Origin: Elusimicrobiota bacterium
GTDB lineage: Bacteria; Elusimicrobiota; Elusimicrobia; UBA1565; UBA9628
Reading direction: 5' to 3'
Assembly: GCA_016212825.1 (NCBI GenBank)
Contig: JACRDS010000100.1
Coordinates: 1-43,145, forward strand
Length of the DNA stretch: 43,145 nucleotides
Shown here: piece after piece, positions 2-43,145 of the stretch
How the letters are laid out: the number at the start of each line of letters is the position of its first letter
Position numbering within the stretch: the stretch's first letter is position 1
Notes under the pieces: generated by a model
What the model was told of the DNA's origin: nothing
The model's input: the letters and a program-made list of their open reading frames with translations, nothing else
The model's database searches: none
Made by a program: the position numbers and the translations under genes

Positions 2-661
2 TTCCGCATCGAGATCGCGGGCGGCGAGCCGTTCTGCCATCCTGACCTGGCCGCCATCGTGAGCGCCGTCTCGCGGCGGCACCATGTCCTGCTGGTGACC
101 AGCCTGCCGACGGACACGCGGGCGGTCCTGGACGGCTTCGACCCGGCCCGGGTGTCCTTCAGCGTCAGCTTCCATCCCTCTCACGCGCGGCTCGAGGAGC
201 TGCTCCCCAAGGTCAAGGGCCTGGCGCGCGCGGGGTTCCCGGTCTCCACGAGCATCGTCGCCTATCCGCCTCATTTCCCCGGGCTGGAGGGCTGGCTGTC
301 GGCCTTCAGAGGCGAAGGCCTGCGCTGCTACCTCAACCCTTTCCAGGGCTCCTTCGCCGGGCGCGACTACCCGCGCTCCTATACGGAGGCGGAGTCTTCT
401 TTCGTGCGCGGCAACTCCTTCCCAGACGCGATGGATCTGCGCCTGGGCGAGGAGCGTCCTTTCGGCCGGCTCTGCCGCGCCGGCTGGAAGTACTTCCGCA
501 TCTGGCCCGACGGCGTCATCCACCGCTGCTGCGCGGCCACGGAGCTCGGCCTGCCGCCTCTCGGACACATCCGCGACGAGGCCGTTCCCGTGGACTCCGC
601 GGCCGCCCCGTGCCCGGCCCGGAGATGCTTCGCTCCCAACGAGGTCATATGCCTGGTCTAG
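2..661 (+). CDS. Radical SAM protein, 3' part only (start lies outside the window)
   Basis: The frame is open from the first bases of the window and ends with TAG at 659-661. The visible 219 residues begin inside a radical SAM barrel, with an AGGEPF motif (SAM amino-group contact) near the left edge, so the CxxxCxxC loop must lie upstream and is not seen. The C-terminal part has clustered cysteines (CRAGW, RCCAA, PCPARRC, then a final EVIC), like the auxiliary-cluster (SPASM-type) tail of peptide-modifying or carbohydrate-modifying radical SAM enzymes. A methionine-like start at position 59 is internal and should not be used. The next gene is a small peptide with a RiPP-leader-like motif, which makes a peptide-modifying role attractive, but this is inference; a hairpin and a new promoter separate the two genes. 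Confidence 0.8.
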   Translation, partial: FRIEIAGGEPFCHPDLAAIVSAVSRRHHVLLVTSLPTDTRAVLDGFDPARVSFSVSFHPSHARLEELLPKVKGLARAGFPVSTSIVAYPPHFPGLEGWLSAFRGEGLRCYLNPFQGSFAGRDYPRSYTEAESSFVRGNSFPDAMDLRLGEERPFGRLCRAGWKYFRIWPDGVIHRCCAATELGLPPLGHIRDEAVPVDSAAAPCPARRCFAPNEVICLV

Positions 662-28674: not shown

Positions 28675-29853
28675 TCATTGGCCGGCCGCTTTCCCGGCCG
28701 CCTCGAGGCGCTTCTGCACGTCGGGGGGAACCCTCTGGAGAGGGGCGTCCTTCTTGAGCTGGGGGGGCGGCTCGGGCTTCTTCATCTGCGCTTCTCGGCG
28801 TTGCCGCCGGATCTCGGCGATCTGCTTATATTTGGCGACCTCCGCGGCGGATTTCTTCCGCGCGGCTTCCTTGGAGACCTCGATGTCCTGGGCAGCCTTG
28901 GCCTGTATGGCCTTGAGCCCGGGGTCCGGTACCTGAGCCGCCTTGCGGATGTCCTCCTCGACCTGGCGGGCGACGCGGGCTGCCGCCGCCGCCGCCGCCT
29001 TGCGCGCAGCTTCTTTGTCGGATGCGGTCTTGCTGATCCTGGCGGCCAATCCGGCGCAGAATGCCTGCCTGACCGAGGAGAGGAAGGGCGCGCAGGCCTG
29101 GGGCTTGCGGTTGGCGATGGCATTGCACAGCGCGGAGGCCGCGCAGGCCTGCGGACTCCCTGAGCGCAGGGCGTCCAGGAACGCGACATAGTCATGGCAG
29201 TGCCGTTTGTCCGCGGCGTTTATCCCGGGGGTGGAGTCGCAGGCCGCGACTCCCGACAAGAAGGCCATTTCGGCCAGGCAAGACGTCCCGGGCTTCAAAT
29301 CGATCCCGGCGGCCTTTACCTTGGCGCAGAGATCCGCGCTCGCGCCGCCTTTCAAGGCGGGCAAGAACAGGGCGCAAAAGCGGGCGGCGTCCTTCTCCGG
29401 CACGAAGCTTTCGCTGGATATCAGTTTCTGGCAGGCGGGCGCCGCATCGTTGGATCGGAACACCTTCCAGATCACGGCATTGAGGAACTGAGTCTGTTTG
29501 CAGCTGCGGATGGAGCTCTCGACGGCATTCAGGCGGCGCAGGGCCTCACAGTCCTGCTCAGGATTCGGCATGGCGCCCAGGCAACTGAAGTAGAGCTCGA
29601 GCGCCCCCGCATGGGAGGCGATATCTGTGCTCATTATCGCGGGGTATTCCTTGGCGTGGGAAACGAGGTCCAGGAAATCAAGGGTGCCCTTCTTGCACCT
29701 GTCGTTGACATCGGCCATGACGGCCTCATCCTTGGCCGGGCCAGCGAGAATACCATCAGGCGTGGCGGCGGGATTGGCCGCAGCGGCGGCGGCGGGCAGC
29801 ATCAGCATGAGCGGCAGATAGACGATGAGTCGGTTCGAATCTCTCTTTTTCAT
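28675..29853 (-). CDS. Secreted Cys-rich protein with helical basic C-terminus, unknown function
   Basis: A 392-residue protein with a Sec signal peptide (MKKRDSNRLIVYLPLMLMLPAAAAA). The central part has some fifteen cysteines, mostly paired within short helical repeats, suggesting a disulfide-linked periplasmic domain. From about residue 285 a long Ala/Lys/Glu/Arg-rich helix, likely a coiled coil, is followed by a Pro/Lys-rich tail. I recognise no family. The ATG at 29853 is chosen for the signal peptide and the preceding GAGAGA; the longer frame to 30015 is not supported. It has its own promoter and leads the operon that continues with the permease and GspE-like genes. Confidence 0.75.
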   Translation of the reverse strand: MKKRDSNRLIVYLPLMLMLPAAAAAANPAATPDGILAGPAKDEAVMADVNDRCKKGTLDFLDLVSHAKEYPAIMSTDIASHAGALELYFSCLGAMPNPEQDCEALRRLNAVESSIRSCKQTQFLNAVIWKVFRSNDAAPACQKLISSESFVPEKDAARFCALFLPALKGGASADLCAKVKAAGIDLKPGTSCLAEMAFLSGVAACDSTPGINAADKRHCHDYVAFLDALRSGSPQACAASALCNAIANRKPQACAPFLSSVRQAFCAGLAARISKTASDKEAARKAAAAAAARVARQVEEDIRKAAQVPDPGLKAIQAKAAQDIEVSKEAARKKSAAEVAKYKQIAEIRRQRREAQMKKPEPPPQLKKDAPLQRVPPDVQKRLEAAGKAAGQ

Positions 29854-30044: not shown

Positions 30045-31301
30045 GTGGCGCGCGTCCGGGCCGTGCTGGCCCGCCGGCGCTGGACCCTGCGCCGGCGCCG
30101 GGCCGCCGGCGCGCCCCGCTTCACCGTGCAGCGGGCCGCGGACCAGCGCGTCCTCTGCGAGATAGTCCTGGACTCCGGCGCCGGCTGGCGGGGCGCGGGC
30201 CGCAGTTCCCTTACCCCGGCCCTGCGCCTGCGCGTCCTGTCTCGGCCGGGAGTCGCTTGGCGCAGTGACGAACGGAAGGGGCTCGACGAGCTGGGGGCGG
30301 CGCTCTACGGACTGCTCGAGCCTCTGGGTCGGCGCGACAGGGGCGGCGCGCGCGGCCCGGCGTCGGCCGAGCTCCACGAGGGCAAGGGAGGCCGCGAACC
30401 GCTGCTGCGCACCACCTTCGCCTGCAACCAGCGCTGTCCGTTCTGCTTCGTGCCTCTGACCGGCCGCCCGGCGGAACTCGCCGAGATCTCCACCGACCTC
30501 GACGCCCTCGCCCGGCAGGGCTCCCGGTCTCGGGAGCTCATGATCTCCGGCGGCGAACCGACCTTGGACCCGCGCCTGCCCCGCATACTCGCCCTGGCCA
30601 GGCGCAAGGGCTTCCGCCGTTTCGTGCTGCAGACCAACGGGGTCCTCCTCGCGCGCCCCGGCCGGCTCGAGAGCCTGGTCCGGCTCGGGGTGGAGAGCTT
30701 CATGGTCTCCTTCCACGCCCGCACGCCCGGCCTCTACGACCGCGTCACGGGCAGCCGGGGGCAGTTCTCCCGGGCCGTGGCCGGGCTGACCCGCCTGCTG
30801 CGCTGCGCCTCCTGCCGGGTGACGGTCAACGTGGTGGTCAACAGGCACAACTACAGGGACCTTCCCGGGCTGGTCGACTTCGTGGCCGACCTTGCCGCCG
30901 GGGCGGGGTGCCGCCGCCGGCCCGAGTTCTATTTCTCCATGATCAACGAGGCCGGGCACGAGAAGGTCCCGGACTGGGCCGTGGACCTCGGGGACGTCGC
31001 TCCGTTCCTGCGTCGGGCGATGGCGCGCTGCCGCAGACGGAGGCTCCCGGTGTCCCGCTTCGGCGGGGAGACCTCCTTCCCGGTCTGCCTGCTGCGCGAG
31101 CCCGGCCGCCATGCCGCCCAGCGGAGCTTCCCCAAGGACCGCGTGCGCTACGCCGAGGGATTCGCGGGGGAGGCCGGCCGGCTCGGCCGCGCCAAGAGGC
31201 CGGCCTGCCGCCGATGCCGCTTCGACGCCCGCTGCCTGGGAGTGCCGGCGCCGTACGCCCGCCTCTTCGGGCTGGGCGCCCTGCGGCCGCCCCGCGGTTG
31301 A
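30045..31301 (+). CDS. Radical SAM protein (island protein A)
   Basis: The radical SAM cluster motif is CNQRCPFC (C127, C131, C134), followed by ISGGEPTLD and a C-terminal Cys group (CRRCRFDARC) that probably binds an auxiliary cluster. About 120 residues precede the barrel and contain only one Cys; they form a small beta-rich domain I do not recognise. The C-terminal two-thirds is closely similar to the second half of the double protein at 35319-37232, even to the end phrase ALRPPRG. GTG 30045 is chosen for its GGGGAG site; longer starts at 29955 and 29994 are possible. It directly precedes the first nitrogenase-like pair. The reaction is unknown; a peptide or cofactor precursor is the natural guess. 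Confidence 0.85.
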   Translation: MARVRAVLARRRWTLRRRRAAGAPRFTVQRAADQRVLCEIVLDSGAGWRGAGRSSLTPALRLRVLSRPGVAWRSDERKGLDELGAALYGLLEPLGRRDRGGARGPASAELHEGKGGREPLLRTTFACNQRCPFCFVPLTGRPAELAEISTDLDALARQGSRSRELMISGGEPTLDPRLPRILALARRKGFRRFVLQTNGVLLARPGRLESLVRLGVESFMVSFHARTPGLYDRVTGSRGQFSRAVAGLTRLLRCASCRVTVNVVVNRHNYRDLPGLVDFVADLAAGAGCRRRPEFYFSMINEAGHEKVPDWAVDLGDVAPFLRRAMARCRRRRLPVSRFGGETSFPVCLLREPGRHAAQRSFPKDRVRYAEGFAGEAGRLGRAKRPACRRCRFDARCLGVPAPYARLFGLGALRPPRG

Positions 31302-31326
31302 CCGCCCCGGACATGTCTGCTAGAGT
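31298..31326 (+). promoter_or_regulatory. Promoter of the first nitrogenase-like pair
   Basis: TTGACC (31298-31303) overlaps the stop codon of the radical SAM gene; after exactly 17 bases comes TAGAGT (31321-31326), preceded by TGC as in extended -10 boxes. AGAGAGG at 31344-31350 is a ribosome binding site, but no ATG or GTG follows it closely in the reading frame of the next gene. Confidence 0.65.
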
Positions 31327-31444
31327 ATTTCTTCGGCGCGCGTAGAGAGGCCAGCCCATCCTGGAGACCCGCAAGCAGTCCAGCCCCCTGGAAAGAGACG
31401 CCGGGGAGAGGCATGTCAACGCCGGGCCGCAGGCCCTGACCGCG

Positions 31445-33103
31445 ATGGCGCGCCTCCTGGGCCTGGCCCAGAGACGAGGCTGGGCCCTGGAGGGGCTCTG
31501 CCGGGAAGGCCGCCGCGGCGTGCGCCTCTGCCTTCGGGGCGGGACGCACAGCCTGGTCTTCCGGCTCGGGCCGGGGCTGTCTCTGGCCGCCGAGGGGGCT
31601 GCGGGCCCATCGGTGGAGCGGCTCAGCCGGGCCTTGTCCCGCCGCCTGCGCGGGCGCCGCCTGGAGGACGTCCTGCGCCTCATCGAGGCCGACCCGCTCT
31701 CGTTCGCGCAGACCGCGACGCCCGGAGCTCCGCAGGACCGCGTCCGGGTCCCCTGCGTCGGCCAGCCCATCGGCATCCTGGACGCGGGCTGGCGCAATTT
31801 CTTCGCCGACCAGGATTTCGAGGTCCTGCTGGGGGTGCCGGAATGCTCCCCCAAGGGTACGGTCACCATCCAGTACGCCGACGGGGAGTGCTACTACGCG
31901 CGGCCCCAGCGCAGCTTCAACAAGTGGAACTTCCTGGATTGGCCGGACGTGGCCCTCGACGAGACCCCGGGCCGCGACGTGGAGGGCGACTCCCTCATCA
32001 CGACGGAGCTGACCGAGCGGGACATGATCCTGGGGACCGGGGCCCGGGCGGACGCCGTGGTCGCGGAGGCCCGGCGCCTGGCCAAGACCGGCAAGACCCT
32101 GGTCTTCACCCACCTCTGCACGCCCATCATCATGGGCGAGGACTTCCAAGGCCTGGCGCGCCGCTGCCTCAAGGAGGTCGGCGGCGCCACGGTGAACTGG
32201 AGCCAGAAGGACCGCGACGAGAACAACAACTTCGGGGACTACTTCCGCGGAGTCCTGGAGCGGCCGGGCTTCTTCAAGGGCCGCGGCGACCCCCGGTCGG
32301 TCAACCTGTTCCACTTCCCGGCCAGGTGCCGCGAGGAGGAACTGCGGCCGTTCCTCGAGAAGGTCGGCGTCCGGGTCAACATCTGCGTGTTCCCGGAGGT
32401 CACGTTCCCGTCCATCCCGGACCTGCCCAAGGCGCGCTGGCAGGTGTTCTGCGAGCGCAGCTCCTACCCCACCAAGGTCCGCGAGCTCCTGGCCGCCTCC
32501 CCGCGGCGGGTCCTGGACGTGCGCGCCCCGTACGGGGTGGAGGGGACGCGGGAGTGCCTGGCCGCCATCGCGGCCGCGGCCGGACAGGGGAAGGCGTTCG
32601 CGCAGGCCTGGAAGGAGCGGCTGAAGACTTTCCGGCCCGCGTGGGAGGAGCTGCGCCGGCAGGCGCAGGGACACCGCCTCGCCTTCGTGGTCTCGGAGGC
32701 GACCCTGCCCAGGCTGCTCATGCTGCGCTACGGCTACGGCGCGCCCCTGGCCCCGATGGTGCGGGAGATGGGCTTCGGCATAGACCTGCTCTATTACGAC
32801 CTCCACGGCCGGGCGCCGGAGCTCCCCCAGGAGCTGGCCGGGGCCGGCGTCACGACCTTCCGCAGCCCCTGGGAGCTCGAACGCGCCCTGAGGGAGGGCT
32901 CCTTCTCGGCGGCGTTCTCCGACATCTGCTTCGACTGGAGGCTCACGCGGGCCGGCAAGGCGCGTTTCTCCAGCCGCGATTTCGAGATGGGGCTGGAGGG
33001 CGCGCGGCGGACCTTCGCGCGGCTCCTGGACGTCTGCCGGCTCCCTTTCTACCGCCGCTACGCCGCGGAGCTCTCTTCCTCCCGGAGGCCGTTCCATGCC
33101 TAG
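31445..33103 (+). CDS. Nitrogenase component 1-like alpha subunit (first pair)
   Basis: A 552-residue protein of the nitrogenase component-1/DPOR fold. After about 100 N-terminal residues of unknown type, cluster-site cysteines lie in YADGECYYAR (C149) and FTHLCTPIIMGEDF (C225, the NifD C154-like block), with ILGTGARADAV in the place of NifD's FGGekkL. VFCERSSYPTK (C336) aligns with the NifD segment carrying Cys275, but the His442 region has no His. It is thus not a normal NifD. The frame is open upstream to 31346 with protein-like composition, and the ribosome binding site at 31344-31350 fits a CTG at 31361 better than ATG 31445, so the true start may be non-standard. It overlaps the beta-like gene by eight bases. 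Confidence 0.8.
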   Translation: MARLLGLAQRRGWALEGLCREGRRGVRLCLRGGTHSLVFRLGPGLSLAAEGAAGPSVERLSRALSRRLRGRRLEDVLRLIEADPLSFAQTATPGAPQDRVRVPCVGQPIGILDAGWRNFFADQDFEVLLGVPECSPKGTVTIQYADGECYYARPQRSFNKWNFLDWPDVALDETPGRDVEGDSLITTELTERDMILGTGARADAVVAEARRLAKTGKTLVFTHLCTPIIMGEDFQGLARRCLKEVGGATVNWSQKDRDENNNFGDYFRGVLERPGFFKGRGDPRSVNLFHFPARCREEELRPFLEKVGVRVNICVFPEVTFPSIPDLPKARWQVFCERSSYPTKVRELLAASPRRVLDVRAPYGVEGTRECLAAIAAAAGQGKAFAQAWKERLKTFRPAWEELRRQAQGHRLAFVVSEATLPRLLMLRYGYGAPLAPMVREMGFGIDLLYYDLHGRAPELPQELAGAGVTTFRSPWELERALREGSFSAAFSDICFDWRLTRAGKARFSSRDFEMGLEGARRTFARLLDVCRLPFYRRYAAELSSSRRPFHA

Positions 33104-34511
33104 CCAGATCGGCGTGCGGATCAACATCCCCTATCTGCAGGGGGCCTACCTGGCCCTCAACGCCATCCCGGACGCCTACTTCCTCGGGGACGGCCCCAGC
33201 TGCGTCTTCGCCAAGGCCGAGCAGATCCACGGCCGGCACGACCTGTTCTCAACCCTGCTCTCCTGCGACAACGGGCACCGGGTCCAGCACACCGGCGTCA
33301 ACGTCTTCAACATCGCCGGCGACTGCGAGGGCATCATCGCCGAGTCCCTGCGCCGGCTGGCCGCGCTGCCCGGCTGCGGCGCGATCTTCATGGGCGCCAT
33401 GCCCATGTGCTCCATCGCGGGCACGGACTACGAGCGGGTGCTGCGCGAGGCCCTCGCCGGGTCGCGCACGCCGGCTTTCGTCATGCCGCGGCGCTCCGCC
33501 ATCTCCGGGGACTGGCTGGACGGCTACGCCGGGGTCCTGGAAGCTCTGGCCCGGGGCATGGACCTGTCCGGAGCCAAGCGCCGGGCCGGCCAGGTGGCCC
33601 TGGTCGGCTACCTGATGGACCGCAACGAAGGCGAGCACTGGGGCAACCTGGCCGAGCTCCAGCGCCTACTCGCCGCTCTGGGCCTCAAGGCCGGATCGAT
33701 CTGGCTCTCGGGGCGCCCCTACGAGGAGCTGCGGCGGGTCCGCCACGCCGAGGCCGTGGTCTCCCTGCCCCACGGCCGCGCCGCCGGGCGCCTCCTGGCC
33801 AAGCGGCTGGGCGTGCGCCTGGTGGAGGCGGAGCTGCCTTTCGGGCTGGAGGCCAGTCGGCGCTTCGTGGAGGGGCTGGGCCGGGAGCTCGGGCGGGAGG
33901 CCCGGGCCCGCGAGGTCGTCGCCGCGGAGCTCGCGGCGGCCGCCCCGCGCCTGCAGTGGAGCGTGCCGCACGCCTTCCTGCACCGGCGCTTCGTCTTCGC
34001 CGGCGACCCGCACTACGCCCCGGGCTTCGTGGAGCAGATCGAGGGGCTCGGAGGGAGCATCGTGGGGCTCATCCTGATGGGCCAGCCGGTCCATCTCACC
34101 GCGGCGCAGAGGCAGGCCCTGGAATCCCGGCCCCATACGGTCTTCGAGCCCCTGCCCCACATGGTCGAGTGGCTCTGCGACGCCGTGTCCCACGAGGGGC
34201 TGGACCTCCTGGTGGGCAACGGCTTCGCGTTCCGGGACATCAAGCCCGGCCTGAAGTGGATGGAGTTCGGCTTTCCTTCGGAGTGCACCCATTTCCTGCG
34301 CGAGGAGCCGTTCCTGGGCTTCCAGGGCGCCCTGGCCTTCTTCTCCCGCGTGGCCAACGAGACCGTCAAAGGCTTGGTGCTGCGCCCGCCGGAGGCGCCG
34401 GAAGACGGCGCAGAGGACGGAGCCCCGCCGTTCCCAGCTCCCGGAGGTGGCGCCGGAACACGCCGGCGCACGAGTCCCGCGCGGCGCAAGCCGCGCAGAC
34501 CGGGGCCTTAG
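33096..34511 (+). CDS. Nitrogenase component 1-like beta subunit (first pair)
   Basis: A 471-residue protein homologous to the gene at 39604-40908 and, more distantly, to NifK/BchB. The N-terminus (INIPYLQGAYLALN, then GDGPSCVFAKAEQ) carries C36 in the position of the HGPQGC cysteine; C57, C77 and C105 (MPMCSIAGTDY) could complete a bridging Fe-S cluster with the alpha-like partner. The central Rossmann part contains LVGYLMDRNEGEHWGNLAELQRLL, and the end has WMEFGFPSECTHF and PFLGFQGAL, both shared with its paralog. ATG overlaps the upstream stop by eight bases. The last 40 residues have no match in the paralog, and their DNA overlaps the convergent radical SAM gene by 146 bases. Confidence 0.85.
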   Translation: MPSQIGVRINIPYLQGAYLALNAIPDAYFLGDGPSCVFAKAEQIHGRHDLFSTLLSCDNGHRVQHTGVNVFNIAGDCEGIIAESLRRLAALPGCGAIFMGAMPMCSIAGTDYERVLREALAGSRTPAFVMPRRSAISGDWLDGYAGVLEALARGMDLSGAKRRAGQVALVGYLMDRNEGEHWGNLAELQRLLAALGLKAGSIWLSGRPYEELRRVRHAEAVVSLPHGRAAGRLLAKRLGVRLVEAELPFGLEASRRFVEGLGRELGREARAREVVAAELAAAAPRLQWSVPHAFLHRRFVFAGDPHYAPGFVEQIEGLGGSIVGLILMGQPVHLTAAQRQALESRPHTVFEPLPHMVEWLCDAVSHEGLDLLVGNGFAFRDIKPGLKWMEFGFPSECTHFLREEPFLGFQGALAFFSRVANETVKGLVLRPPEAPEDGAEDGAPPFPAPGGGAGTRRRTSPARRKPRRPGP

Positions 34512-35322
34512 CCCGGCGCCGGGTCGGCTCGAGGCTGACGATCTCGGCCAGGCCCGCCGCGCCTGCGACGCGCGCCCTCTCCACCGTGGCCCGGTGGGAG
34601 AAGTAGAGGTCGTTGGAGCACTCCCAGCGTTCCCCCAGGGCGCAGAGGGGGACTCCGAAGACCCGCAAGACGGTCCCCCGCTTCTCCGCGAGACGAGCCA
34701 GCGCCGGCAGCCCGCGCCGCCACCAGGCCAGCGGGACCGCGTTGCGCGCGTAGTCCCGGGCCCCGCGCCCCTCCGGCGCCACCTGGGACAGCAGACAGTG
34801 CCGGACCCGGCCCAGGGCCAGGATGAAGCGCAGGATGTGCTCGAGGCGGTCGAAGTTCCGGCGCGTGACCACGGTGTTGGTCAGCAGGAACAGCCCGGGC
34901 CGGGCCGCGGCCAGGGCGAAGGCGCGCCGGAGCCGGGCGAAGCTCCCGGGCGTGCGGGTCAGCGCGTCGTGCAGCTCCGGGCCGTCTCCGTGGATGGAGA
35001 GGCAGAGCTCGTCGATGAGGGGCAGGGCCCGGCGGGCGAAGCCGGGCTCGGCCAGGCGGCAGCCGTTGGAGGTCACGTAGGTCGAGAACCCCAGGCGCTT
35101 GGCTCCGGCCAGGATGCCCAGGAAGCCGGGGTGCAGCGTGGGCTCGCCCCCGGTCAGGGTGAGGTGGTCGAAGCCCTGGCGGCGCTTGACCGCCAGGACC
35201 CGGGCGATCTCCGCTGATCCCACCGGGGCGCCGCGCCAGCGCGCCAGCCGGCTGGACTCCGAGCAGAAGGAGCAGTCCTGGGTGCAGGCGTAGGAGATGT
35301 GGAACTCCAGCCGTCGGATCAC
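34366..35322 (-). CDS. Radical SAM protein (island protein C)
   Basis: A 318-residue radical SAM enzyme with CTQDCSFC (C13, C17, C20), LTGGEPTLH (58-65), a Ser-Ile-His strand, and a C-terminal Cys group (VCAACAARDSC) suited to an auxiliary cluster. It resembles the first half of the double protein encoded just upstream. The start is GTG 35322, whose GTGA overlaps the TGA of the upstream gene; the longer frame to 35793 is a shadow of that gene. Its 3' end overlaps the beta-like gene on the other strand. Its partner enzymes and substrate are unknown. Confidence 0.87.
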   Translation of the reverse strand: MIRRLEFHISYACTQDCSFCSESSRLARWRGAPVGSAEIARVLAVKRRQGFDHLTLTGGEPTLHPGFLGILAGAKRLGFSTYVTSNGCRLAEPGFARRALPLIDELCLSIHGDGPELHDALTRTPGSFARLRRAFALAAARPGLFLLTNTVVTRRNFDRLEHILRFILALGRVRHCLLSQVAPEGRGARDYARNAVPLAWWRRGLPALARLAEKRGTVLRVFGVPLCALGERWECSNDLYFSHRATVERARVAGAAGLAEIVSLEPTRRRAKAPVCAACAARDSCAGVFRRHLRELGTAGLRPLRRLPAPPAGAAPSL

Positions 35323-37232
35323 GGGGCCCTCCGGCCGCGAGGCGGCCGCAGGGCGGCCAGGCCGAACCGGCGGGCGTACGGCGCCGGGACCCCCAGGCAC
35401 CGGCGGTCGTGGGGGCAGCGCCGGCAGCCGGGGAGCTTGGCCCGGCCGACCGAGCCCGCCTCCCCGGAGAAATCCGCGCCGTAGCGCACGCCTTCCTGGG
35501 ACATCTCGAAGCGGCCCGCGTACCCCGCCGCGTCGCTGAGCAGGCAGGGGGGCAGGGCGGTCTCGCCCGTGAAGCGCTGCATGAGCAGGCCCACGCGCCG
35601 GCCGCGCGCCAGCGCCCGGCGCAAGAACGGCGCCACGCGGCGCAGGTCCACGGCGAAGGACGGGGCCAGCTCGTGGCCGCGTCCGTTCATCATGCTCAAG
35701 CCGACCTGCAGGGGGTCTCCCGCGATGCGCCCGGTTTTGCGGGCGAGCCGGCCCAGGAACCCCATCAGGGCCGGCAGCTCCCGGTAGTTCCAAGCGTTGA
35801 CCAGGACGCAGACCGTGACCCGGCAGTGCGGGGCCGCGAGGAGCCGGGTGAGGCCCGCGACCGCCGTCTTGAACTGCCAGCGGCTGCAGGTGATGCGGTC
35901 GTAGAGGGCGGGCTTGTGGGCGTGGAACGCGATGTCGTAGCTTCGCACGCCCAGGGCGAGCAGCCGGCTCAGCATGCCGGGCCGGGCCAGCCCCACGCCG
36001 TTGGATTGGAGGGCGAAGCGGCGGATGCCCTTGCGCCGCGCCGAGGCGATGACCTTCGGCAGCCGCGCGTCGGCCAGGGGCTCTCCGCCCGACAGGGTCA
36101 GTTCGTCCCGGGGTCCGAGCCGGCGCGCCAGGGCCGCGAGCTCGCGCTCGATCCGGGCGGAGGGCATGCTCCGGTCGTGGCCGGGCAGGAAGCAGAAGGG
36201 GCAGCGCTGGTTGCAGGCCGAGGTGGTCCGGAGGATGAGCTCGACGCCGCCCTCCCCGCCCTGGTGGGTCTCGGCGCTTTCATGCCTAGACCCTCCGCCC
36301 GGGCCCAGGATGCGGCGCAGGATCGGCCGGGGGTCCGTCTTCTGCGGCACGACCTCGGCGGGGTCGTAGCCCTGCCCCATGTCCCAGAGCCCGGCGCAGA
36401 TGCGGGTCAGGGAGCAGAGCCGGCAGGCTGCGGGCTTGCCGTAGCCGAAGCTCCACTGCCGCTCCCGGTAGTGGCGGCGCGCGTCGAGGAAGTCGATGGA
36501 GCGCTCCTCGCGTCGGACCAAGGCGCGGGTCTCGGTGGAGCAGTGGGCGAACTCGCCCATGTAGCACAGCGGCACTTTCTCGACCCGGAAGGTGCGGTCC
36601 GTGCGCTCCAGCCAGCGCATGGCCGCGAGCAGGGAGTCCTTCAGGCCCCTGAGCGCGGGGACCGTCTCCGGGTGTCCCGCCACCCGGCCGGTGAGCGTGT
36701 CGAGGCAGGTCCAGGAGAAGTGGTGGATGTAGGGGAACCTCTGGCAGAGCCAGCGCACGGTCTCATGGATGTGGTCCGAGTTCTGGGCGCAGATGGTCTG
36801 GTTGATGTCCACGTCCGCCTGGTATCGGCTCAGCAGGGCGAGCGTGCGCACGATGTTGGGCAGGGAGTCCGGGTTGCCGCTCAGGAAGGATTGCACCGGC
36901 TTGCGGTGGCTGTGCACCGTGACGTGGAGGTGGCGCAGGCCGGCAGACATCAGGGAGCGGAGGTAGGCCGGGTCCGCGGTGCGCTGGCCGTTGGTGATGA
37001 TCCGGCAGCCCAGGCCCAGGCCCTGGGCGTAGGCGATGAGCTCGGGCAGGGGCTCGTAGAGCGTGGGTTCGCCTCCGGTCAGGATGACCCCGTCGTAGCC
37101 CCGCCGGCGGTAGCGCTCGCAGAAGCGCTTGGCCTGGGACAGGGAGAGTTCCCGCTCGTTGGCCGGGTTGGAGCAGAAACGGCACTCCTGGTTGCACTTC
37201 CTCACGACCTGGATGTATCCGAGATTCGCCAT
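35319..37232 (-). CDS. Tandem double radical SAM protein (island protein B)
   Basis: A 637-residue chain with two complete radical SAM modules. Module 1 has CNQECRFC (C13, C17, C20), LTGGEPTLY and an auxiliary Cys set (near 223, 231, 270, 273, 279). A short Gly/Pro-rich linker (about 308-328) leads to module 2 with CNQRCPFC (C340, C344, C347), LSGGEPLAD and CRRCPHDRRC. Module 2 is a close paralog of protein A, module 1 is nearer to protein C. Two such barrels in one polypeptide suggest consecutive reactions on one substrate. ATG 37232 has AGGG about six bases upstream. It is divergent from the NifH-fusion gene across an AT-rich island and is coupled to protein C by a GTGA overlap. Confidence 0.87.
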   Translation of the reverse strand: MANLGYIQVVRKCNQECRFCSNPANERELSLSQAKRFCERYRRRGYDGVILTGGEPTLYEPLPELIAYAQGLGLGCRIITNGQRTADPAYLRSLMSAGLRHLHVTVHSHRKPVQSFLSGNPDSLPNIVRTLALLSRYQADVDINQTICAQNSDHIHETVRWLCQRFPYIHHFSWTCLDTLTGRVAGHPETVPALRGLKDSLLAAMRWLERTDRTFRVEKVPLCYMGEFAHCSTETRALVRREERSIDFLDARRHYRERQWSFGYGKPAACRLCSLTRICAGLWDMGQGYDPAEVVPQKTDPRPILRRILGPGGGSRHESAETHQGGEGGVELILRTTSACNQRCPFCFLPGHDRSMPSARIERELAALARRLGPRDELTLSGGEPLADARLPKVIASARRKGIRRFALQSNGVGLARPGMLSRLLALGVRSYDIAFHAHKPALYDRITCSRWQFKTAVAGLTRLLAAPHCRVTVCVLVNAWNYRELPALMGFLGRLARKTGRIAGDPLQVGLSMMNGRGHELAPSFAVDLRRVAPFLRRALARGRRVGLLMQRFTGETALPPCLLSDAAGYAGRFEMSQEGVRYGADFSGEAGSVGRAKLPGCRRCPHDRRCLGVPAPYARRFGLAALRPPRGRRAP

Positions 37233-37248
37233 GGCAGGCCCTGCGCTT

Positions 37249-37259
37249 TCTATATAATA
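37249..37259. promoter_or_regulatory. AT-rich divergent promoter island between protein B and the NifH fusion
   Basis: In otherwise GC-rich DNA, TCTATATAATA contains a perfect rightward TATAAT (37253-37258) and overlapping leftward -10 candidates (TATAGA, TATATA, TATTAT). The two genes start 17-33 bases away on either side, so one site may drive both halves of the island. No clear -35 boxes are seen. Confidence 0.5.
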
Positions 37260-37273
37260 CTACTTGCCCATTA

Positions 37274-39607
37274 ATGGTACGATGGGAGTTCATGAGCGCG
37301 CGCCGGAATGTCGAGCGGATTGCCTTCCTCGGCAAGGGCGGGATCGGGAAATCCACCCTGTCGGCCAACATCAGCGCGCTTTACGCCCGCCAGGGGCGCC
37401 GCGTCCTGCACGTTGGCTGCGACCCCAAGCGGGACTCCACGGCCCTGCTCCTGGAGCCCTCCCGGGTCAGGCCCGTGCTCTCCCAGGAAGGCGATTCCCT
37501 CGCCGTGGCCGCGGCCCGCGATTTCGTGGTGCGCAGCCGCCTGGGCATGGACTGCATCGAGGCCGGGGGGCCTCAGCCGGGCATCGGCTGCGCCGGGCGC
37601 GCCATCGGCAAGACCATCGACGTCCTGGAGGCCCAGGGGCTCGTGGCGCGGGGCGGCTACGACGTCGTGCTCTTCGACATCTTGGGCGACGTGGTCTGCG
37701 GCGGCTTCGCCGCGCCCCTGCGAAGGGGCTTCGCGCAGAAGGTGGTCATCGTGGTCAGCGAGGAGATGATGTCCCTCTACGCGGCCAACAACATCGCCTG
37801 GGCCGTGCGCAACCACGCCGAGAACGGCGTGGCCCTCTGCGGGCTGCTGGCCAACCTGCGCGACCCCGGGGCGGACCTGGAGCCGGTGGAGCGCTTCGCG
37901 CGCCGCATCGGCACCACGGTCCTGGGCGTGCTGCGCCGCGACCCGGCCTTCCGGGAGGGCGAACTGCTCGGCCGCTGCCTGGTGGAGACGCACCCGCGCG
38001 GGAAGTCCCTGGCCGCCCTGGACCGGGTGGCCCGGCGCCTGCTGGCCCTGGACCCGGCCTCCTGCCCCCTGCCCGCGCCCATGGGCGACGAGGAGTTCCA
38101 CGAAACCAGCCGCGCCCGCTTCCGCGGCCCGCGCCGTCCCGCGCCCGCAGCCGCGCCCGCCGCGCCGCCGCCTTCCCAGGAGCCGGCGCCGGCCGCGGCT
38201 CGCCTCCCGGCGGCTCCTCTTGAAGGGAAGGACCTGATCCCTTCCCTCGAGCCGGCCGAGGGCGAGCCGCGGGTCCCGCCGTACACCCGCTGGATGATGT
38301 GGAACTGGGGGGTCAAGGACCAGTGGCGCGAGTTCTTCGCTGACGCCGAGCTCGCCCTCCACTCGGGCAAGCCCCTGATGAGGAACGTCGCTTACGTGAT
38401 CCACAAGGAGCTGGAGTGCTTCTTCGTGGAGGCGCGCAGCGACGACGGAGCCGCGTCCTTCTTCAGCCACGCCTGGCCGCGGCACTGCAGCGTGACCCTG
38501 CCCCTGCCCATGGAACTGCGCGCCCTGGGCTGCCGGCAGGTCATCACCGAGATCCGCGACAGCGAGATCGTCCTGGGCGGCAACCGCAAGCTCGAGGCCG
38601 CGCTGGACCGCCTGGCCCGGGACTCCGGGGACCTCTCGCTGGTCGTGTTCCTGCACTCCTGTCCCTCGGTCATCACGGGCGACAACCTCGCGCCCGTCAT
38701 CGAGCGGTTCCGCCGCAAGACGGGCCTGCCGGTGATCTTCCCGGACCGCAACGCGGACCAGCACACCGACGTCCTGGCCGCGGTGTTCGATTGGGCGCTC
38801 CGCGGCCGCCGGGCGGCCAGGCGCAGGCGCTCCGCTCCCAGCGTGAACCTGGTCGGCTTCCCCCGCGACCGGGCCTTGGAGGAGCTGACCGGCATCCTGC
38901 GCGAGACCGGCATCGAGGTGAACGCCTCGCTGCTCCCGGAGTTCGATGTGGAAAGCGTGCGGCGCTATCCGCGGGCGGGCCTCCAGGTGCTCAAACCGCA
39001 CAGCGCCTATGAGACGTTCTACGCGGAGAGGCTGGACCGGCTCGGGATCCCCGCGTTGCGCCCGGAATCCCCCTACGGGATCGCGGGGACCCGCCGCTGG
39101 CTCGGCGAGATCGCCCGGTTCTTCGGCCTGGAAGCGCGCCTGGAGAAGGTCTGGCAGCGCCGGTGGGCTCTGCGCCGCGGAGCCTGGGAGGAGCTGCGGG
39201 CTCAGGCCCGAGGGCGGAGCCTGGGGTTCGTCTGCGACGCGGCGCGGCTGCGCAAGCTCCGGGAGAGCCGCTGGAGCGCCGGCATCCCTCTGGGTCCGAC
39301 CATCCGCGAGATGGGCTTCGGCCTGGAGTGGCTCCTGTGGTGCGGCGGCAAGGACTGCCGCAGTCACGGCGCCCCGGGGCGCCGCTTCCACGGCCCGGAG
39401 GAGCTCGGCGCCCGGCTGCGGGAGTCCCCGGCCCGGGCGTTCTATTCGGACCTCGCCTGCGACACCCGGCTCTCCCGGGCCGGACAGGCCCAGTTCTCTT
39501 TGGCCTTCTTCGAGCCGGGCCTCGACGGCGCTCTGCGCAGCCTGGAGCGGCTGCTGGGCGCCTGCCGCCTGCCCTTCTTCCGGGAGCTTCGCCGCTCCCT
39601 CGGATGA
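37274..39607 (+). CDS. Fusion of NifH-like reductase and nitrogenase component 1-like alpha subunit
   Basis: A 777-residue fusion. Residues about 14-280 are a NifH/BchL-type ATPase: P-loop GKGGIGKST (20-28), CDPKRDST, both [4Fe-4S] cysteines in GIGCAGRAIGK (C106) and FDILGDVVCGGFA (C142), and the arginine next to C106 that is the ADP-ribosylation site in NifH. A Pro/Ala-rich linker (about 283-318) leads to an alpha-like component 1 domain with ECFFVE (C382), LHSCPSVITGD (C463) and IVLGGNRKLEAAL, the counterpart of NifD's FGGekkL. No Cys275 or His442 equivalent is visible, so FeMo-cofactor binding is unlikely. NifH and NifD are normally separate chains. ATG 37292, with GGGAG upstream, is an alternative start. 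The stop overlaps the next start (ATGA). Confidence 0.88.
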   Translation: MVRWEFMSARRNVERIAFLGKGGIGKSTLSANISALYARQGRRVLHVGCDPKRDSTALLLEPSRVRPVLSQEGDSLAVAAARDFVVRSRLGMDCIEAGGPQPGIGCAGRAIGKTIDVLEAQGLVARGGYDVVLFDILGDVVCGGFAAPLRRGFAQKVVIVVSEEMMSLYAANNIAWAVRNHAENGVALCGLLANLRDPGADLEPVERFARRIGTTVLGVLRRDPAFREGELLGRCLVETHPRGKSLAALDRVARRLLALDPASCPLPAPMGDEEFHETSRARFRGPRRPAPAAAPAAPPPSQEPAPAAARLPAAPLEGKDLIPSLEPAEGEPRVPPYTRWMMWNWGVKDQWREFFADAELALHSGKPLMRNVAYVIHKELECFFVEARSDDGAASFFSHAWPRHCSVTLPLPMELRALGCRQVITEIRDSEIVLGGNRKLEAALDRLARDSGDLSLVVFLHSCPSVITGDNLAPVIERFRRKTGLPVIFPDRNADQHTDVLAAVFDWALRGRRAARRRRSAPSVNLVGFPRDRALEELTGILRETGIEVNASLLPEFDVESVRRYPRAGLQVLKPHSAYETFYAERLDRLGIPALRPESPYGIAGTRRWLGEIARFFGLEARLEKVWQRRWALRRGAWEELRAQARGRSLGFVCDAARLRKLRESRWSAGIPLGPTIREMGFGLEWLLWCGGKDCRSHGAPGRRFHGPEELGARLRESPARAFYSDLACDTRLSRAGQAQFSLAFFEPGLDGALRSLERLLGACRLPFFRELRRSLG

Positions 39608-40908
39608 CCATGGCGGAACCGACCACGGATTCCCTCAGGCTCGACCTTCCCTATCTCCTGGGCGTCTACGCCGCGGTCAATGCGGTCCGCGACGCCTACC
39701 TGCTCGTGGACGGCCCCCAGTGCGTCTCGTTCAAGGCCGAGCACATCGCGGGCAAGCACGATTGGCGCTCGAGCCTGCTCGACTGCGCGGGCTTCCACCG
39801 CGTGGTCATGACCGGGACCACCTTCGACTCGGTGGCCTTCAGCCGGGAGCAGACCATCACGGACCTTCTGCGCCGCATCGCCGGGCGGGACGACGCGGGC
39901 GTGGTCCTGGTCTCCTGCCTGACCATGTGCGGCCTGACCGGGGTGCAGTACGACCGCCTGTCCCGGCCCCTGGAGCGCGAGACCGGCAAGCCCTTCCTGC
40001 CCATCCGCTGCGACTCGCTGGAGGAGGATTGGCTCGACGGCTACGCCGCGGTCTGCGCGGCCGCGGTCCGAGCCGCGGCCCTGCCGGGCCGGCGCCGCCG
40101 CAAGGGGGCGGTGGCCCTGACGGGATATCTTTTCGACCGCAACGAAGGCGACCATGCGGCCAATCTGGCCGAGCTGGAGCGGATGCTGGCGGGCCTCTCG
40201 CTGGACCTGGTCGCGGCCTTCCCCTCCGGGGGCGCCTACGCGGACCTGGGAAGGGCGGCCGAGGCCTCTGCCGTGATCTCGCTGCCCTACGCCCGGGAGG
40301 CGGGCCGGACCTTGGCCCGGCGCCTGGGGGTCCCGCTCGTGGAGACCGGGCTGCCTTTCGGTCTGGAGTCCAGCACGCGCTGGCTGAGGGCCGTGGCCGG
40401 CCCGTTCGGCCGCAAGGCCGCGGCCGAGCGATTCCTCTTGCGGGAGACCCGCGCCGCCCTCACCCCTCTGGAGAGGGCGGTCGGCGAGGTCTTCCTCAAC
40501 CGCCGGCTTCTCTACGCCGGGGACCCCTACCTTTTCGAGGGCTTCTGCGAGATCGCGGCCTTGCTGGGTTGCGCCATCGACTCGGCCGCCGTGTTCTCCC
40601 GCCCCGGCCGGCTCGGGCCGCGCGCCCGAGCCCTGGGTCCCGCGGTCCTGGAGCAGCCCGAGGAGCTGGCCTGGCTGCGCGTGGTGGAAGCCCAGCCGCC
40701 GCGCGACCTGTGCGTCTGCAACAACGTCGGCTGGCAGGCGCTGGGCGAGGGGGCCGGACCGGTCATGGAGTTCGGTTTCCCCTCGCATTTCTTCCACAGC
40801 CTGGCTCCGCGGCCGTTCCTGGGCTTCCGGGGTTTCCTCCACTTCGCCGACCGCATGGCCGAGCACCTCATGGCCGCGCGCATGCGGGCTGGGGCGCGGG
40901 GGTCCTGA
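39604..40908 (+). CDS. Nitrogenase component 1-like beta subunit (second pair)
   Basis: A 434-residue paralog of the protein at 33096-34511. C40 in VDGPQCVSFKAE matches the conserved HGPQGC cysteine of NifK/BchB; C61, C105 and C109 (VSCLTMCGLTGVQYD) are further cluster-ligand candidates. The middle has LTGYLFDRNEGDHAANL and the end MEFGFPSHFFHSL with PFLGFRGFL. Its ATG overlaps the stop of the NifH-alpha fusion by four bases, indicating equal production of both chains; ATG 39610 is an alternative. The longer frame from 39163 is a shadow. Together the two proteins would form an alpha2-beta2-like core carrying its own tethered reductase. Confidence 0.86.
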   Translation: MTMAEPTTDSLRLDLPYLLGVYAAVNAVRDAYLLVDGPQCVSFKAEHIAGKHDWRSSLLDCAGFHRVVMTGTTFDSVAFSREQTITDLLRRIAGRDDAGVVLVSCLTMCGLTGVQYDRLSRPLERETGKPFLPIRCDSLEEDWLDGYAAVCAAAVRAAALPGRRRRKGAVALTGYLFDRNEGDHAANLAELERMLAGLSLDLVAAFPSGGAYADLGRAAEASAVISLPYAREAGRTLARRLGVPLVETGLPFGLESSTRWLRAVAGPFGRKAAAERFLLRETRAALTPLERAVGEVFLNRRLLYAGDPYLFEGFCEIAALLGCAIDSAAVFSRPGRLGPRARALGPAVLEQPEELAWLRVVEAQPPRDLCVCNNVGWQALGEGAGPVMEFGFPSHFFHSLAPRPFLGFRGFLHFADRMAEHLMAARMRAGARGS

Positions 40909-40914
40909 GGGCGC

Positions 40915-41460
40915 GTGGCTCGGTCGTCGAGCCGAAGAGGCGGACTCCTGCTCCTCGAGCTGGCGTTCGACGAGCCCGAACATCAGAACGGCGTCGAGGC
41001 GTTCCCCCTGCTCATGGGCGTGGGGCGCAGACTCGGCTGGCCCGTCGCCTGGCTGACTCTGGGCGTGCGCTATGAGCCGGCGATGCTCTACCGGCTGGCG
41101 TCCGGCGACCTGCGCGTCCTGCTCGGGGAGACGGCGCGCACCCGCCCAAGAGCCGTCATCGTCAGCGCGCGACTCGATGAGCGTCAGCGCCGACGGCTCG
41201 AGTCGGCGGGCGCGAGGGTGCTCATCTGCCCCATCGACGAAGGCGCGGTCGATGAGCTCCCGCGCTTCATCAAGACCGCGCTGCCGGAGGCCTGCCGCCC
41301 CTGGCTCGATGACCCGCGCCTCTTCGACCGGCTGGATCCGGATTATCGGCGCAGGCCGCTGAACCGGGCGCCCTGGACCCGCCGCGCCATCATCCGCGTG
41401 GTCGCCGGCATGCGCTGTTCGTATCTCTCGCGCGCCGCTGAAAACCCGTTCTACCGGTGA
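40915..41460 (+). CDS. Cobalamin-type radical SAM protein, N-terminal part up to an in-frame TGA
   Basis: GTG 40915, six bases after the previous stop and preceded by GAGG, starts a Rossmann-like domain (about residues 10-120) of the kind that binds cobalamin in B12-dependent radical SAM proteins; H23-x-x-G26 is present but the usual preceding Asp is not. The radical SAM region begins with GMRCSYLSRAAENPFYR (C168) and is then interrupted by TGA at 41458-41460. The same frame continues without a shift into a protein that supplies the missing CSFC. Either the gene carries a nonsense mutation, or the TGA is read through or recoded, or the base is a sequencing error. On its own this 181-residue product would lack a complete Fe-S cluster site. 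Confidence 0.75.
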   Translation: MARSSSRRGGLLLLELAFDEPEHQNGVEAFPLLMGVGRRLGWPVAWLTLGVRYEPAMLYRLASGDLRVLLGETARTRPRAVIVSARLDERQRRRLESAGARVLICPIDEGAVDELPRFIKTALPEACRPWLDDPRLFDRLDPDYRRRPLNRAPWTRRAIIRVVAGMRCSYLSRAAENPFYR

Positions 41461-41478
41461 CTTCCCGAGGCCGGGAGG
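41461..41478 (+). other. Hairpin immediately after the in-frame TGA
   Basis: CTTCCCG (41461-41467) pairs with CGGGAGG (41472-41478), including one G-T pair, around the loop AGGC. It begins at the base after the TGA. A bacterial selenocysteine element is normally placed further downstream (loop roughly 16-37 bases from the TGA), so this is not a good match, but a structure here could affect readthrough. Confidence 0.35.
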
Positions 41479-42438
41479 GCGCTGCGCTGCTCCTTCTGCG
41501 GGATGCGGTCCATGAGGATGCCCCTGCAAGACGAGCTGGCTTACGCCGTGCGCCACGTGGAGTCGGCCTGCCGCCAGCGGCGGGGCGAAGGCGGCGAGCG
41601 GCGCTTCGAGCTCGTGGGCAGCCGGCTGTGGCCGGGGATCGAGACGCTGGTCGACGCCCTGGCGCGGGCGGGGGTGCGGGGCGCCGAGCTCAACTTCATG
41701 CCGCGCGTCGACGAGCTCCTGGCGCGGCGCGACGCCGTGGTCCGCTGTCTGCCGGTCTTGGCCCGCCAGGGCCTGGCGCTGCGCCTCTATGGGATGGGGG
41801 TCGAGAATTTCTCGCCGGCCGAGAACATGCGGCTCAACAAGGGTGTCGCGGCCGGCCAGGTCCACGAGGCCGCCGGGTTCATGCGGGAGACCGCCGAGCG
41901 GTGGCCCCGGCAGTTCCGGCTGCCTTCCGGCGGTCTCAGCATGATCCTGTTCACGCCCTGGACCACCATCGAGGATCTCCTCATAAATATCCACCATATC
42001 GAACGGTGCCCTCTCATCGACCGGTCCTTCGCCATCGGCAGGCGCCTGCAGCTGTTCCCGGGCCTTCCCATCACCGCCTTGGCGGCCAAGGATGGGCTGC
42101 TCGCCGCCGCAGACGAGCCGTTCTACAACTCGGGCTGCATCACGAGCGCCGACCGGAAGGAGATCCCCTGGCGCTTCCGTCGACCGGAGGTGGAGGTCTT
42201 GTGGCGGCTCGCGCGCAGGCTCTCCTCCAATCACGGCGGCGTGCCCGCCGACGACCCGGAGCGGCGCCGCATCGACGCGCTCTTGGCCGGCCGGCGACGC
42301 CCCTTGACGGAGGACCGCCGCGACCCCTTCACCGTGTTCCGTCGCGCCGTCGAGATCGCGGCAAGCTGGACCGGCTCGCGGAGACGGCGCCGTCGGGCTC
42401 TAAGCCCGGGCCCTCCAGGCAATGGTATGATGAGTTGA
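41461..42438 (+). CDS. Cobalamin-type radical SAM protein, continuation after the in-frame TGA
   Basis: Directly after the TGA the same frame reads LPEAGRALRCSFCGMR, giving the second and third cluster cysteines (C192 and C195 of the joined protein). The rest is a radical SAM barrel with VGSRLWPGIETL, ELNFMPRVDEL, and a tail containing DEPFYNSGC. The first ATG after the TGA (41503) would lose the CxxC, so independent translation from there would make an inactive protein. The reading frame is otherwise undamaged over 325 codons, and the next gene starts two bases after its stop, which argues that the disruption is recent, an error, or tolerated by recoding. The joined protein would have 507 residues, or 506 if the codon is simply lost. 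Confidence 0.7.
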   Translation, partial: LPEAGRALRCSFCGMRSMRMPLQDELAYAVRHVESACRQRRGEGGERRFELVGSRLWPGIETLVDALARAGVRGAELNFMPRVDELLARRDAVVRCLPVLARQGLALRLYGMGVENFSPAENMRLNKGVAAGQVHEAAGFMRETAERWPRQFRLPSGGLSMILFTPWTTIEDLLINIHHIERCPLIDRSFAIGRRLQLFPGLPITALAAKDGLLAAADEPFYNSGCITSADRKEIPWRFRRPEVEVLWRLARRLSSNHGGVPADDPERRRIDALLAGRRRPLTEDRRDPFTVFRRAVEIAASWTGSRRRRRRALSPGPPGNGMMS

Positions 42439-42440
42439 CC

Positions 42441-43145
42441 ATGGATGCCGCCGCCGACCGCGCGCAGGAAGCACTTGCGTCCTCCTGGGACGTCCGGTCC
42501 ATCGGCCGCGCCCGCGGCGGGAGCCGGACCACCCCCCTCACGGAGCGGCGCTGGGCGCACGCCGTCGACTCCCATTGGCACCTCAGCACGACGGTGCGCT
42601 GCCAGCACCGCTGCATCTACTGCTACGAGGGGGACCGGACTGGATTCCACGACGTGCCGCTCAAGGATGCCAAGAGGCTGGTCTCCCTGGCCGCGGCCGA
42701 GGTCCCCATGGTGCTCTTCCTGGGGGCGGAGCCGACCCTCAACCCCCACATGCCCGAGCTCATCCGGCACGCGGTGCGCCTGGGCCTGCGGGCGGGCATC
42801 TCCACCAACGCCCTGTGCCTGGCGGACTGGGGTTATCTGGAGGAATTGCACCGGGCGGGATTGGACCTCGTGGAGTTCTCGTTCTCCTACCCGGACGCCG
42901 AGACCTACGCCAAGATCACGGGCGCGGCTCCAGCGAACTATGTCCGCCTGCTCCGGGCGGTCGAGAACCTCGCCCGATGGCAGGAGACGCTGGGCCGCAG
43001 CCGCTCCGGCGGGCTGTTCCCCAACATCGTGGTCAACGGTTACACGATCGACCGGCTCGAGGACACGCTCCGACAGCTGACCCGCCGCCTGACGCCCGGC
43101 CGCTTCATCCTGACCTTGCTGCGCCTGCACACCGCTCCGCACGCC
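42441..43145 (+). CDS. Radical SAM protein (island protein E), 5' part; continues beyond the window
   Basis: ATG 42441, two bases after the preceding stop, opens a frame that runs to the right edge (235 codons) without a stop. A 50-residue leader is followed by CQHRCIYC (C54, C58, C61), the radical SAM cluster motif, then FLGAEPTLNPHM, where the usual GGEP is GAEP, and the strands GISTNAL, VEFSFSY and NIVVNGYTID expected of the barrel. The C-terminal region and any auxiliary-cluster cysteines are outside the window. The close spacing places it in the same transcript as the NifH fusion, beta-like and cobalamin-type genes. Confidence 0.85.
   Translation, partial: MDAAADRAQEALASSWDVRSIGRARGGSRTTPLTERRWAHAVDSHWHLSTTVRCQHRCIYCYEGDRTGFHDVPLKDAKRLVSLAAAEVPMVLFLGAEPTLNPHMPELIRHAVRLGLRAGISTNALCLADWGYLEELHRAGLDLVEFSFSYPDAETYAKITGAAPANYVRLLRAVENLARWQETLGRSRSGGLFPNIVVNGYTIDRLEDTLRQLTRRLTPGRFILTLLRLHTAPHA

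Follow-up and report, generated by a model that had tools for sequence, protein, structure and literature searches.

What does a nitrogenase-type reductase do when its genes stand among those of radical SAM enzymes? The question is raised by a 13 kb island of nine genes at the end of contig C50 of an Elusimicrobiota bacterium (genome G000), the full length of which (positions 1–43145; 43,145 nucleotides) we refer to as the window. In this phylum, nitrogenase-like genes with many radical SAM genes were reportedly described in 2020 by Meheust et al. (ISME J 14:2907). An earlier note, made from the letters of the window alone, mentioned related paralogs in Elusimicrobiota and took the island for a candidate undescribed reductive system. 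The paralogs do exist in print, as group VI, according to the available passages of PMC11257099, and "undescribed" as such is not supported. We found that the alpha and beta subunits of the island fall in two clades apart from the reference reductases and that, in each of two phyla, almost every genome with this branch has the poorly understood His-Xaa-Ser (HXS) radical SAM system as well. The island is most likely a fused and strongly expanded variant of the group VI family.

Gene content and placement of the nitrogenase-like genes

The nitrogenase-like part of the island consists of two component-1 alpha/beta pairs, as the earlier note had read it. The first pair is formed by alphaA (31445..33103, plus strand; PF00148, 70.5 bits), an alpha-like gene of the group VI type clade, and by the beta-like betaA (33096..34511, plus strand; PF00148, 123 bits). 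In the second pair, a NifH domain and an alpha-like domain share a single open reading frame (NifH-alphaB fusion, 37274..39607, plus strand; PF00142, 234 bits, and PF00148, 86 bits), which overlaps the beta-like betaB (39604..40908, plus strand; PF00148) by an ATGA. The fusion product has 777 aa, with the NifH domain at residues 15–275 and the alpha domain from about residue 350 to the end. The one NifH announced earlier was present, but as a domain of this fusion and not as a separate gene. According to Pfam, all four component-1 units contained Oxidored_nitro (PF00148; 70–136 bits) and four genes contained Radical_SAM, and the best E-values of the island genes (2e-14 to 3e-69) were beyond chance.

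Both pairs were placed in an alpha/beta tree of 36 alpha rows, 40 beta rows and 26 reference or outside rows (MarDK and IsrDK not among them). A single clade held 35 of the 36 alpha rows (support 0.936) and another one 37 of the 40 beta rows (support 0.972). The two window pairs fell in these clades, to which this genome contributed six alpha and six beta rows in all; further members stood on contigs titled Myxococcota, Deltaproteobacteria and Spirochaetes, a range of phyla that is a lower bound, drawn from the best 80 of at least 589 candidate loci. NifD, NifK, NifE, NifN, BchN, BchB, BchY, BchZ and the component-1 neighbours of CfbC were all outside, and the four alpha and beta rows left outside came from loci L137 and L165. 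The earlier expectation of a reductive system outside the characterised clades is borne out for the references in this tree, the Mar and Isr subunits not being included. In the H tree, where Mar was represented by one MarH stretch, the 63 family rows were split into ten pure groups, the H domains were not united and the root was unclear; for this reason we base the placement on the alpha and beta clades. The largest pure group (41 rows, support 92) included the fused NifH of the window; the stand-alone H of contig C95 belonged to another (7 rows, support 63) and the Myxococcota rows to small groups.

With the NCBIfam models, the NifH domain of the window scored 231 bits for the NifH equivalog (cut-off 394) and 230 bits for CfbC (cut-off 402), while the best score with an alpha-type nitrogenase model was 44 (cut-off 486). 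None of the ten translations scanned reached a nif equivalog cut-off in NCBIfam, NifB not having been searched for genome-wide. Equivalents of C88 and C154 were found in all 35 rows of the alpha (D) clade. In beta (K), GPxC was present in 60 of 69 rows and a second cysteine in 48 of 69. The ligands of the iron-molybdenum cofactor (FeMo-co) were not apparent in the D clade, with a cysteine at C275 in 1 of 35 rows and a histidine at H442 in 0 of 35; within 4 columns of these positions, C or H was found in 9 of 35 and 3 of 35 rows, respectively, in a weakly aligned region. The fold model of the H-alpha protein was weak (pLDDT 70.6). Among PDB entries, a Mar chain matched the alpha portion of the D profile best.

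We counted 13 component-1 (PF00148) matches in this genome, on contigs C50, C13 and C95, and four NifH matches above cut-off. Twelve of the 13 were inside the new clades and the 13th was not placed. The idea of a single self-contained island had to be given up, since these matches sit on three contigs. A search of 57 genomes, including this one, gave matches in 21 genomes, 17 of them above cut-off and one with 18 matches. The stretches from those 17 genomes comprised 76 beta-like and 50 alpha-like genes, 20 NifH-alpha fusions (that of the window included), 28 stand-alone NifH genes, 149 radical SAM genes and 16 diverged radical SAM-like genes, all approximate counts from a simple gene caller trained on profile hits. 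With 20 fusions across the fetched stretches, the NifH-alpha fusion is common and no assembly slip. We also observed a distinct family of NifH/component-1 fusions, mostly with a second component-1 gene behind (L120–L129, L133, L139, L167 and others), on contigs titled Clostridia-type bacteria, methanogens and Treponema; the two tested members, L139 and L167, were below the CfbC and NifH cut-offs.

Association with HXS loci and a partner radical SAM clade

HxsA4 (138, cut-off 55), HxsB (532, cut-off 370) and HxsD (63, cut-off 50) were identified with NCBIfam on contig C95 of the same genome, where HxsD, HxsB and the GSH-repeat HxsA4 stand in a single run with radical SAM genes and an alpha/beta pair. 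Locus L132 likewise has HxsA4, HxsB and HxsD above the NCBIfam cut-offs. Among 294 Elusimicrobiota genomes, 40 matched the beta profile at 1e-15; we counted 35 of them as carriers and the five with weak matches (other families, best 58–76 bits) as non-carriers. HxsB was above cut-off in 33 of the 35 carriers and in 41 of the 259 others (Fisher 1e-20, a test blind to phylogeny). In 13 of the 33 genomes with both, a beta gene was within 20 kb of HxsB, where 1.33 would be expected under uniform placement; none of 200,000 simulations gave more than 8.

A second phylum, that of G311 (locus L113, titled Myxococcales bacterium), was represented by 195 genomes, 13 of which were carriers based on a beta match at 1e-50. 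HxsB was above cut-off in 12 of these 13 carriers and in 19 of the 182 others (p 4e-10), and beta was within 20 kb of HxsB in 3 of 12 genomes (0.11 expected, P 2e-4). The gene order in L113 is HxsD-like (48.6, cut-off 50), a 61-aa open reading frame, HxsB (477, cut-off 370), H, D and K. A set of 20 loci, 16 of them titled Myxococcales, Myxococcota, Deltaproteobacteria or Bradymonadales, one Spirochaetes and three just "bacterium", led to 19 genomes, of which 17 had HxsB above cut-off and 2 had it in two pieces on two contigs. Three of these loci (L105, L106 and L108) showed only a NifH gene, and the HxsB coordinates of G305, one of the 19 genomes, were identical to those of G279 in the Elusimicrobiota set.

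The radical SAM genes were grouped by a tree of 298 domains, score-ratio clustering being too fine. rSAM1 (30045..31301, plus strand; PF04055, 69 bits), which carries a C-terminal Cys motif, and the C-terminal half of a double radical SAM protein (35319..37232, minus strand) belonged to one clade, hereafter clade X; none of its 32 rows came from HXS loci of non-carriers, which provided only 31 of the 298 domains. The double protein, with two PF04055 stretches, had been recognised in the earlier note. Its N-terminal half and rSAM2 (34366..35322, minus strand, GTG start; PF04055, 54 bits) fell in clades in common with HXS loci of genomes without these nitrogenase-like genes. The best matches of rSAM1, rSAM2 and the double protein were HxsC-type models (HxsC4/HxsC for rSAM2), with 69–110 bits against a cut-off of 268; judged by these scores, they are related to HxsC and not members of it.

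When the 294 Elusimicrobiota genomes were searched with a 14-row model of clade X, the scores fell from 233 to 187 bits, with no gap thereafter. The 12 genomes with at least 230 bits were all carriers, in agreement with the coupling to radical SAM enzymes that had been proposed. Within family f1, this score was reached in 12 of 17 carriers and in none of 17 others (p 1e-5). When the eight f1 genomes that had supplied rows to the model are left out, together with G014, which is in the clade, the figures become 3 of 8 and 0 of 17 (p 0.024). The test is partly circular because the model was built from carrier loci. In L110, a Deltaproteobacteria member of clade X directly precedes H-D-K.

Four of the five radical SAM genes expected in the island stood, namely the three full genes above and rSAM5 (42441..43145, plus strand; PF04055, 70.7 bits), which is cut by the contig end. 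The fifth (40915..42438, plus strand) is a diverged radical SAM-like gene broken by an in-frame TGA at 41458. It had been called cobalamin-type, a label that we could not sustain: both pieces of its product were without a Pfam match at 0.001, B12 and radical SAM domains included, and the homolog nearest to it in the fetched stretches had no match to any Pfam family, these domains included, even at E 1. The family has the motif C-x23-C-x2-C. Since the position of the TGA is G, R or E in five homologs, the stop probably arose by a nonsense change or from an error in assembly. Selenocysteine or another recoding was rejected, the site being variable and Cys in 0 of 5 homologs. In-frame TGA or TAG codons also occur inside nitrogenase-like or radical SAM matches of other genomes (e.g. 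G014:C16:74303-75409).

The gene junctions were as described earlier, with overlaps of 8 bp (33096/33103) and 4 bp (35319–35322 and 39604–39607), a gap of 2 bp (42438/42441) and divergent starts near 37232/37274. The ends of betaA and rSAM2 converge and share 146 bp (34366–34511); the C-terminal tail of one of the two may be misread. At the other end of the window, a possible C-terminal fragment of a radical SAM/SPASM protein (2..661, plus strand) was weakly matched (SPASM 15.3 and Radical_SAM 14.6 bits, both below cut-off), which places radical SAM-like sequence at both window ends.

Upstream of rSAM1, a gene of the u5 family (28675..29853, minus strand) encodes a predicted secreted protein; copies in relatives are often near HxsD or HxsB, and the family shares a stretch with HxsD in 10 of 19 HXS loci. 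The membrane protein u1 shows the motifs of A24 leader peptidases (1 of 4 members tested was above the Pfam cut-off) and was found in the stretches of 12 of the 17 carrier genomes, several copies lying between radical SAM genes beside the fusion; G017, a non-carrier, has a module of radical SAM, u1 and radical SAM genes in its HXS locus as well. Seen less often were NodU-type carbamoyltransferases, with four genes across two carrier genomes and another in L118, and GDSL hydrolases, which made up 4 of 75 neighbours. FixABCX-like genes feed nitrogenase in other bacteria; in L051:4210-7614 (G002:C64), such a set directly adjoins an alpha/beta pair of this family. Within a run of alpha/beta genes on contig C95, L039:8278-11610 encodes a protein of 1111 aa in which Pfam recognises 4Fe-4S and NodU-type carbamoyltransferase domains and which also matches our radical SAM profiles. 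Predicted secreted proteins of the u19 family (e.g. L132:8883-9338, L181:7600-8331), which have a conserved motif of the T-Y-Y-P-A-P type close to their start, occur near HxsD in many HXS loci. In family f13, L216 and L212 (G246 and G262) have a NifH-alpha/beta pair without radical SAM genes, between ElyC-like and infC-rpmI-rplT-pheST-like genes.

Proposed role and alternative explanations

From the gene identities, the fusion, the clade placement and the two associations described above, we tentatively favour a role for these complexes in a longer version of the HXS pathway, in which they would use ATP to reduce groups installed by the radical SAM enzymes on a ribosomally made HxsA-type protein or on a maturation intermediate. 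Cofactor, peptide and other organic substrate had all been suggested earlier; because of the HXS link, which had then been missed, peptide is the best supported of the three. The NifH domain would hydrolyse ATP and pass low-potential electrons singly to a [4Fe-4S] cluster at the P-cluster position, which two conserved cysteines of alpha (the C88 and C154 equivalents) would ligate together with one or two of beta. Without apparent ligands for FeMo-co, an organic substrate bound in the cavity between alpha and beta would receive the electrons directly, in the manner of DPOR. A single NifH may serve several alpha/beta pairs, given 4 NifH and 13 component-1 matches in the genome. The weakest step is the choice of the HxsA repeat protein as the substrate. 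A bolder version, which we find doubtful, makes them post-translational maturases, each with a partner radical SAM enzyme, that would reduce the His-Gly-Ser repeat protein of the HXS system and would have multiplied in Elusimicrobiota, up to about nine alpha/beta pairs per genome, for one heavily modified protein.

Several observations weigh against a role in the HXS pathway. The window itself contains none of HxsA, HxsB and HxsD, which are on C95 instead. Within family f1 the signal for HxsB was modest (15 of 17 carriers and 8 of 17 others, p 0.013), the carriers G002 (best E 1.9e-85), G011 and G321 lack HxsB above cut-off, and the converse fails, with HXS in 41 of the 259 Elusimicrobiota genomes without this nitrogenase-like branch. 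In f13, 6 of 17 fetched beta stretches were without any radical SAM gene; neighbourhoods without radical SAM genes had been named beforehand as refuting the proposed system, which these six do in part. Some f13 beta stretches adjoin translation genes (infC-rplT-pheST-like) or envelope genes (ElyC-like), as read from sequence starts. HxsA itself appeared to differ little between carriers and the non-carriers G017 and G020, and direct support for it as the substrate was not found. The cysteine mapping is based on alignments of remote sequences, and in the fold comparison K was nearest to BchB of DPOR, a tetrapyrrole reductase. We know of no nitrogenase-like enzyme that acts on a peptide, and association is not biochemistry.

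The nearness to BchB also speaks for a tetrapyrrole reductase, as does the suggestion in print for group VI (PMC11257099, in the passages available). In this case the complexes, like DPOR, COR and CfbCD, would reduce double bonds in the ring of a modified tetrapyrrole, and the radical SAM and B12-type enzymes would decarboxylate, methylate or cyclise it. HemB is present in 53 of the 57 genomes and HemC in 52, carriers or not; neither tracks the island, and being this widespread they do not discriminate. The PF00590 protein tested best matched an rRNA methyltransferase model, below cut-off, none of the 25 most frequent among the 91 families matched in 75 of 98 neighbour proteins was specific to tetrapyrroles, and a tetrapyrrole role does not predict the HXS association. 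We consider this explanation unlikely. A role on cofactors, in which the nitrogenase-like proteins would either reduce the metal or FeS clusters that the radical SAM enzymes contain or assemble a metallocofactor, with a NifEN-like scaffold and a NifB-like radical SAM enzyme, leaving the final substrate untouched, appears still less probable. Thirteen alpha/beta against four NifH matches recall scaffold and catalytic pairs, NifE is the nearest D reference on the tree, and a partner radical SAM clade stands beside the nitrogenase-like genes; however, ligands for a NifB-type cluster are not apparent at C275 and H442, and no NifB model was among the 25 best of 42 for rSAM1.

Cleavage of C-S bonds or assimilation of small-molecule sulfur, with each pair served by its own radical SAM enzyme as in isrBHDK, we hold to be very unlikely. 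One radical SAM gene next to HDK is the Isr arrangement (PMC11423573, in the part available), and a Mar chain was the best PDB match to the alpha part; the cysteine pattern is unlike that of Isr, and Mar reportedly uses nitrogenase metalloclusters (PMC12552129), whereas the corresponding FeMo-co ligands are not apparent in the island. The complexes are not expected to fix nitrogen: apart from the fold and the NifH domain, which a distant nitrogenase would share, the NifH score is far from its cut-off (231 vs 394), the FeMo-co ligands are not apparent and 12 of the 13 component-1 matches are outside the Nif references, the 13th being unplaced, which makes this explanation extremely improbable.

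If the role in the HXS pathway is true, nitrogenase-type chemistry would be extended to proteins by a branch that goes with a system of the ribosomal peptide type. The link would also give a handle on HXS, for which our literature search (subscription papers outside it) returned neither a described product nor a publication connecting it with nitrogenase-like enzymes; clade X and HxsA point to a set for co-expression.

Comparison with known systems

The nitrogenase relatives of known function act on N2, on precursors of chlorophyll and F430 and on C-S bonds of small molecules (in part PMC11423573). With DPOR (BchL-BchNB) and COR (BchX-BchYZ) the island shares a NifH-type reductase and alpha/beta subunits without FeMo-co, and its K fold is nearest to BchB; it differs in that its clades are apart from BchN, BchB, BchY and BchZ, its NifH is fused to alpha, the equivalog cut-offs were missed by more than 100 bits and an HXS association exists. 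CfbCD resembles the island in the NifH domain, which scored with the CfbC model level with the NifH model but below the CfbC cut-off; L143 and L156 do reach that cut-off, and their component-1 neighbours are outside the clades. Mar and Isr resemble the island in standing beside a radical SAM enzyme and, for Mar, in the PDB match. Isr has one cysteine in D (the C88 equivalent) and three in K in the part of PMC11423573 available, whereas the island has two in D and one or two in K, and nitrogenase-type cofactor ligands are not apparent in the island alpha.

The HXS system (HxsA/B/C/D) was described by Haft and Basu, as cited in the available passages of PMC9062424. It is recognisable in this genome and in L132 by HxsA4, HxsB and HxsD, which pass their cut-offs; those passages mention no nitrogenase-like component, whereas here such genes, an A24-like peptidase and extra radical SAM genes surround it. 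The closest counterpart of the island is most likely the group VI paralog of Elusimicrobiota, to which we liken it by phylum and description, and for which tetrapyrrole modification has been suggested. The available group VI passages (PMC11257099) make no mention of the HXS link, the partner radical SAM clade or the Myxococcota carriers found here. New here are the expansion of the family (13 component-1 matches in this genome, 18 in a related one), its near-confinement to HXS genomes in two phyla, its partner radical SAM clade and its carriers named Myxococcota and Deltaproteobacteria.

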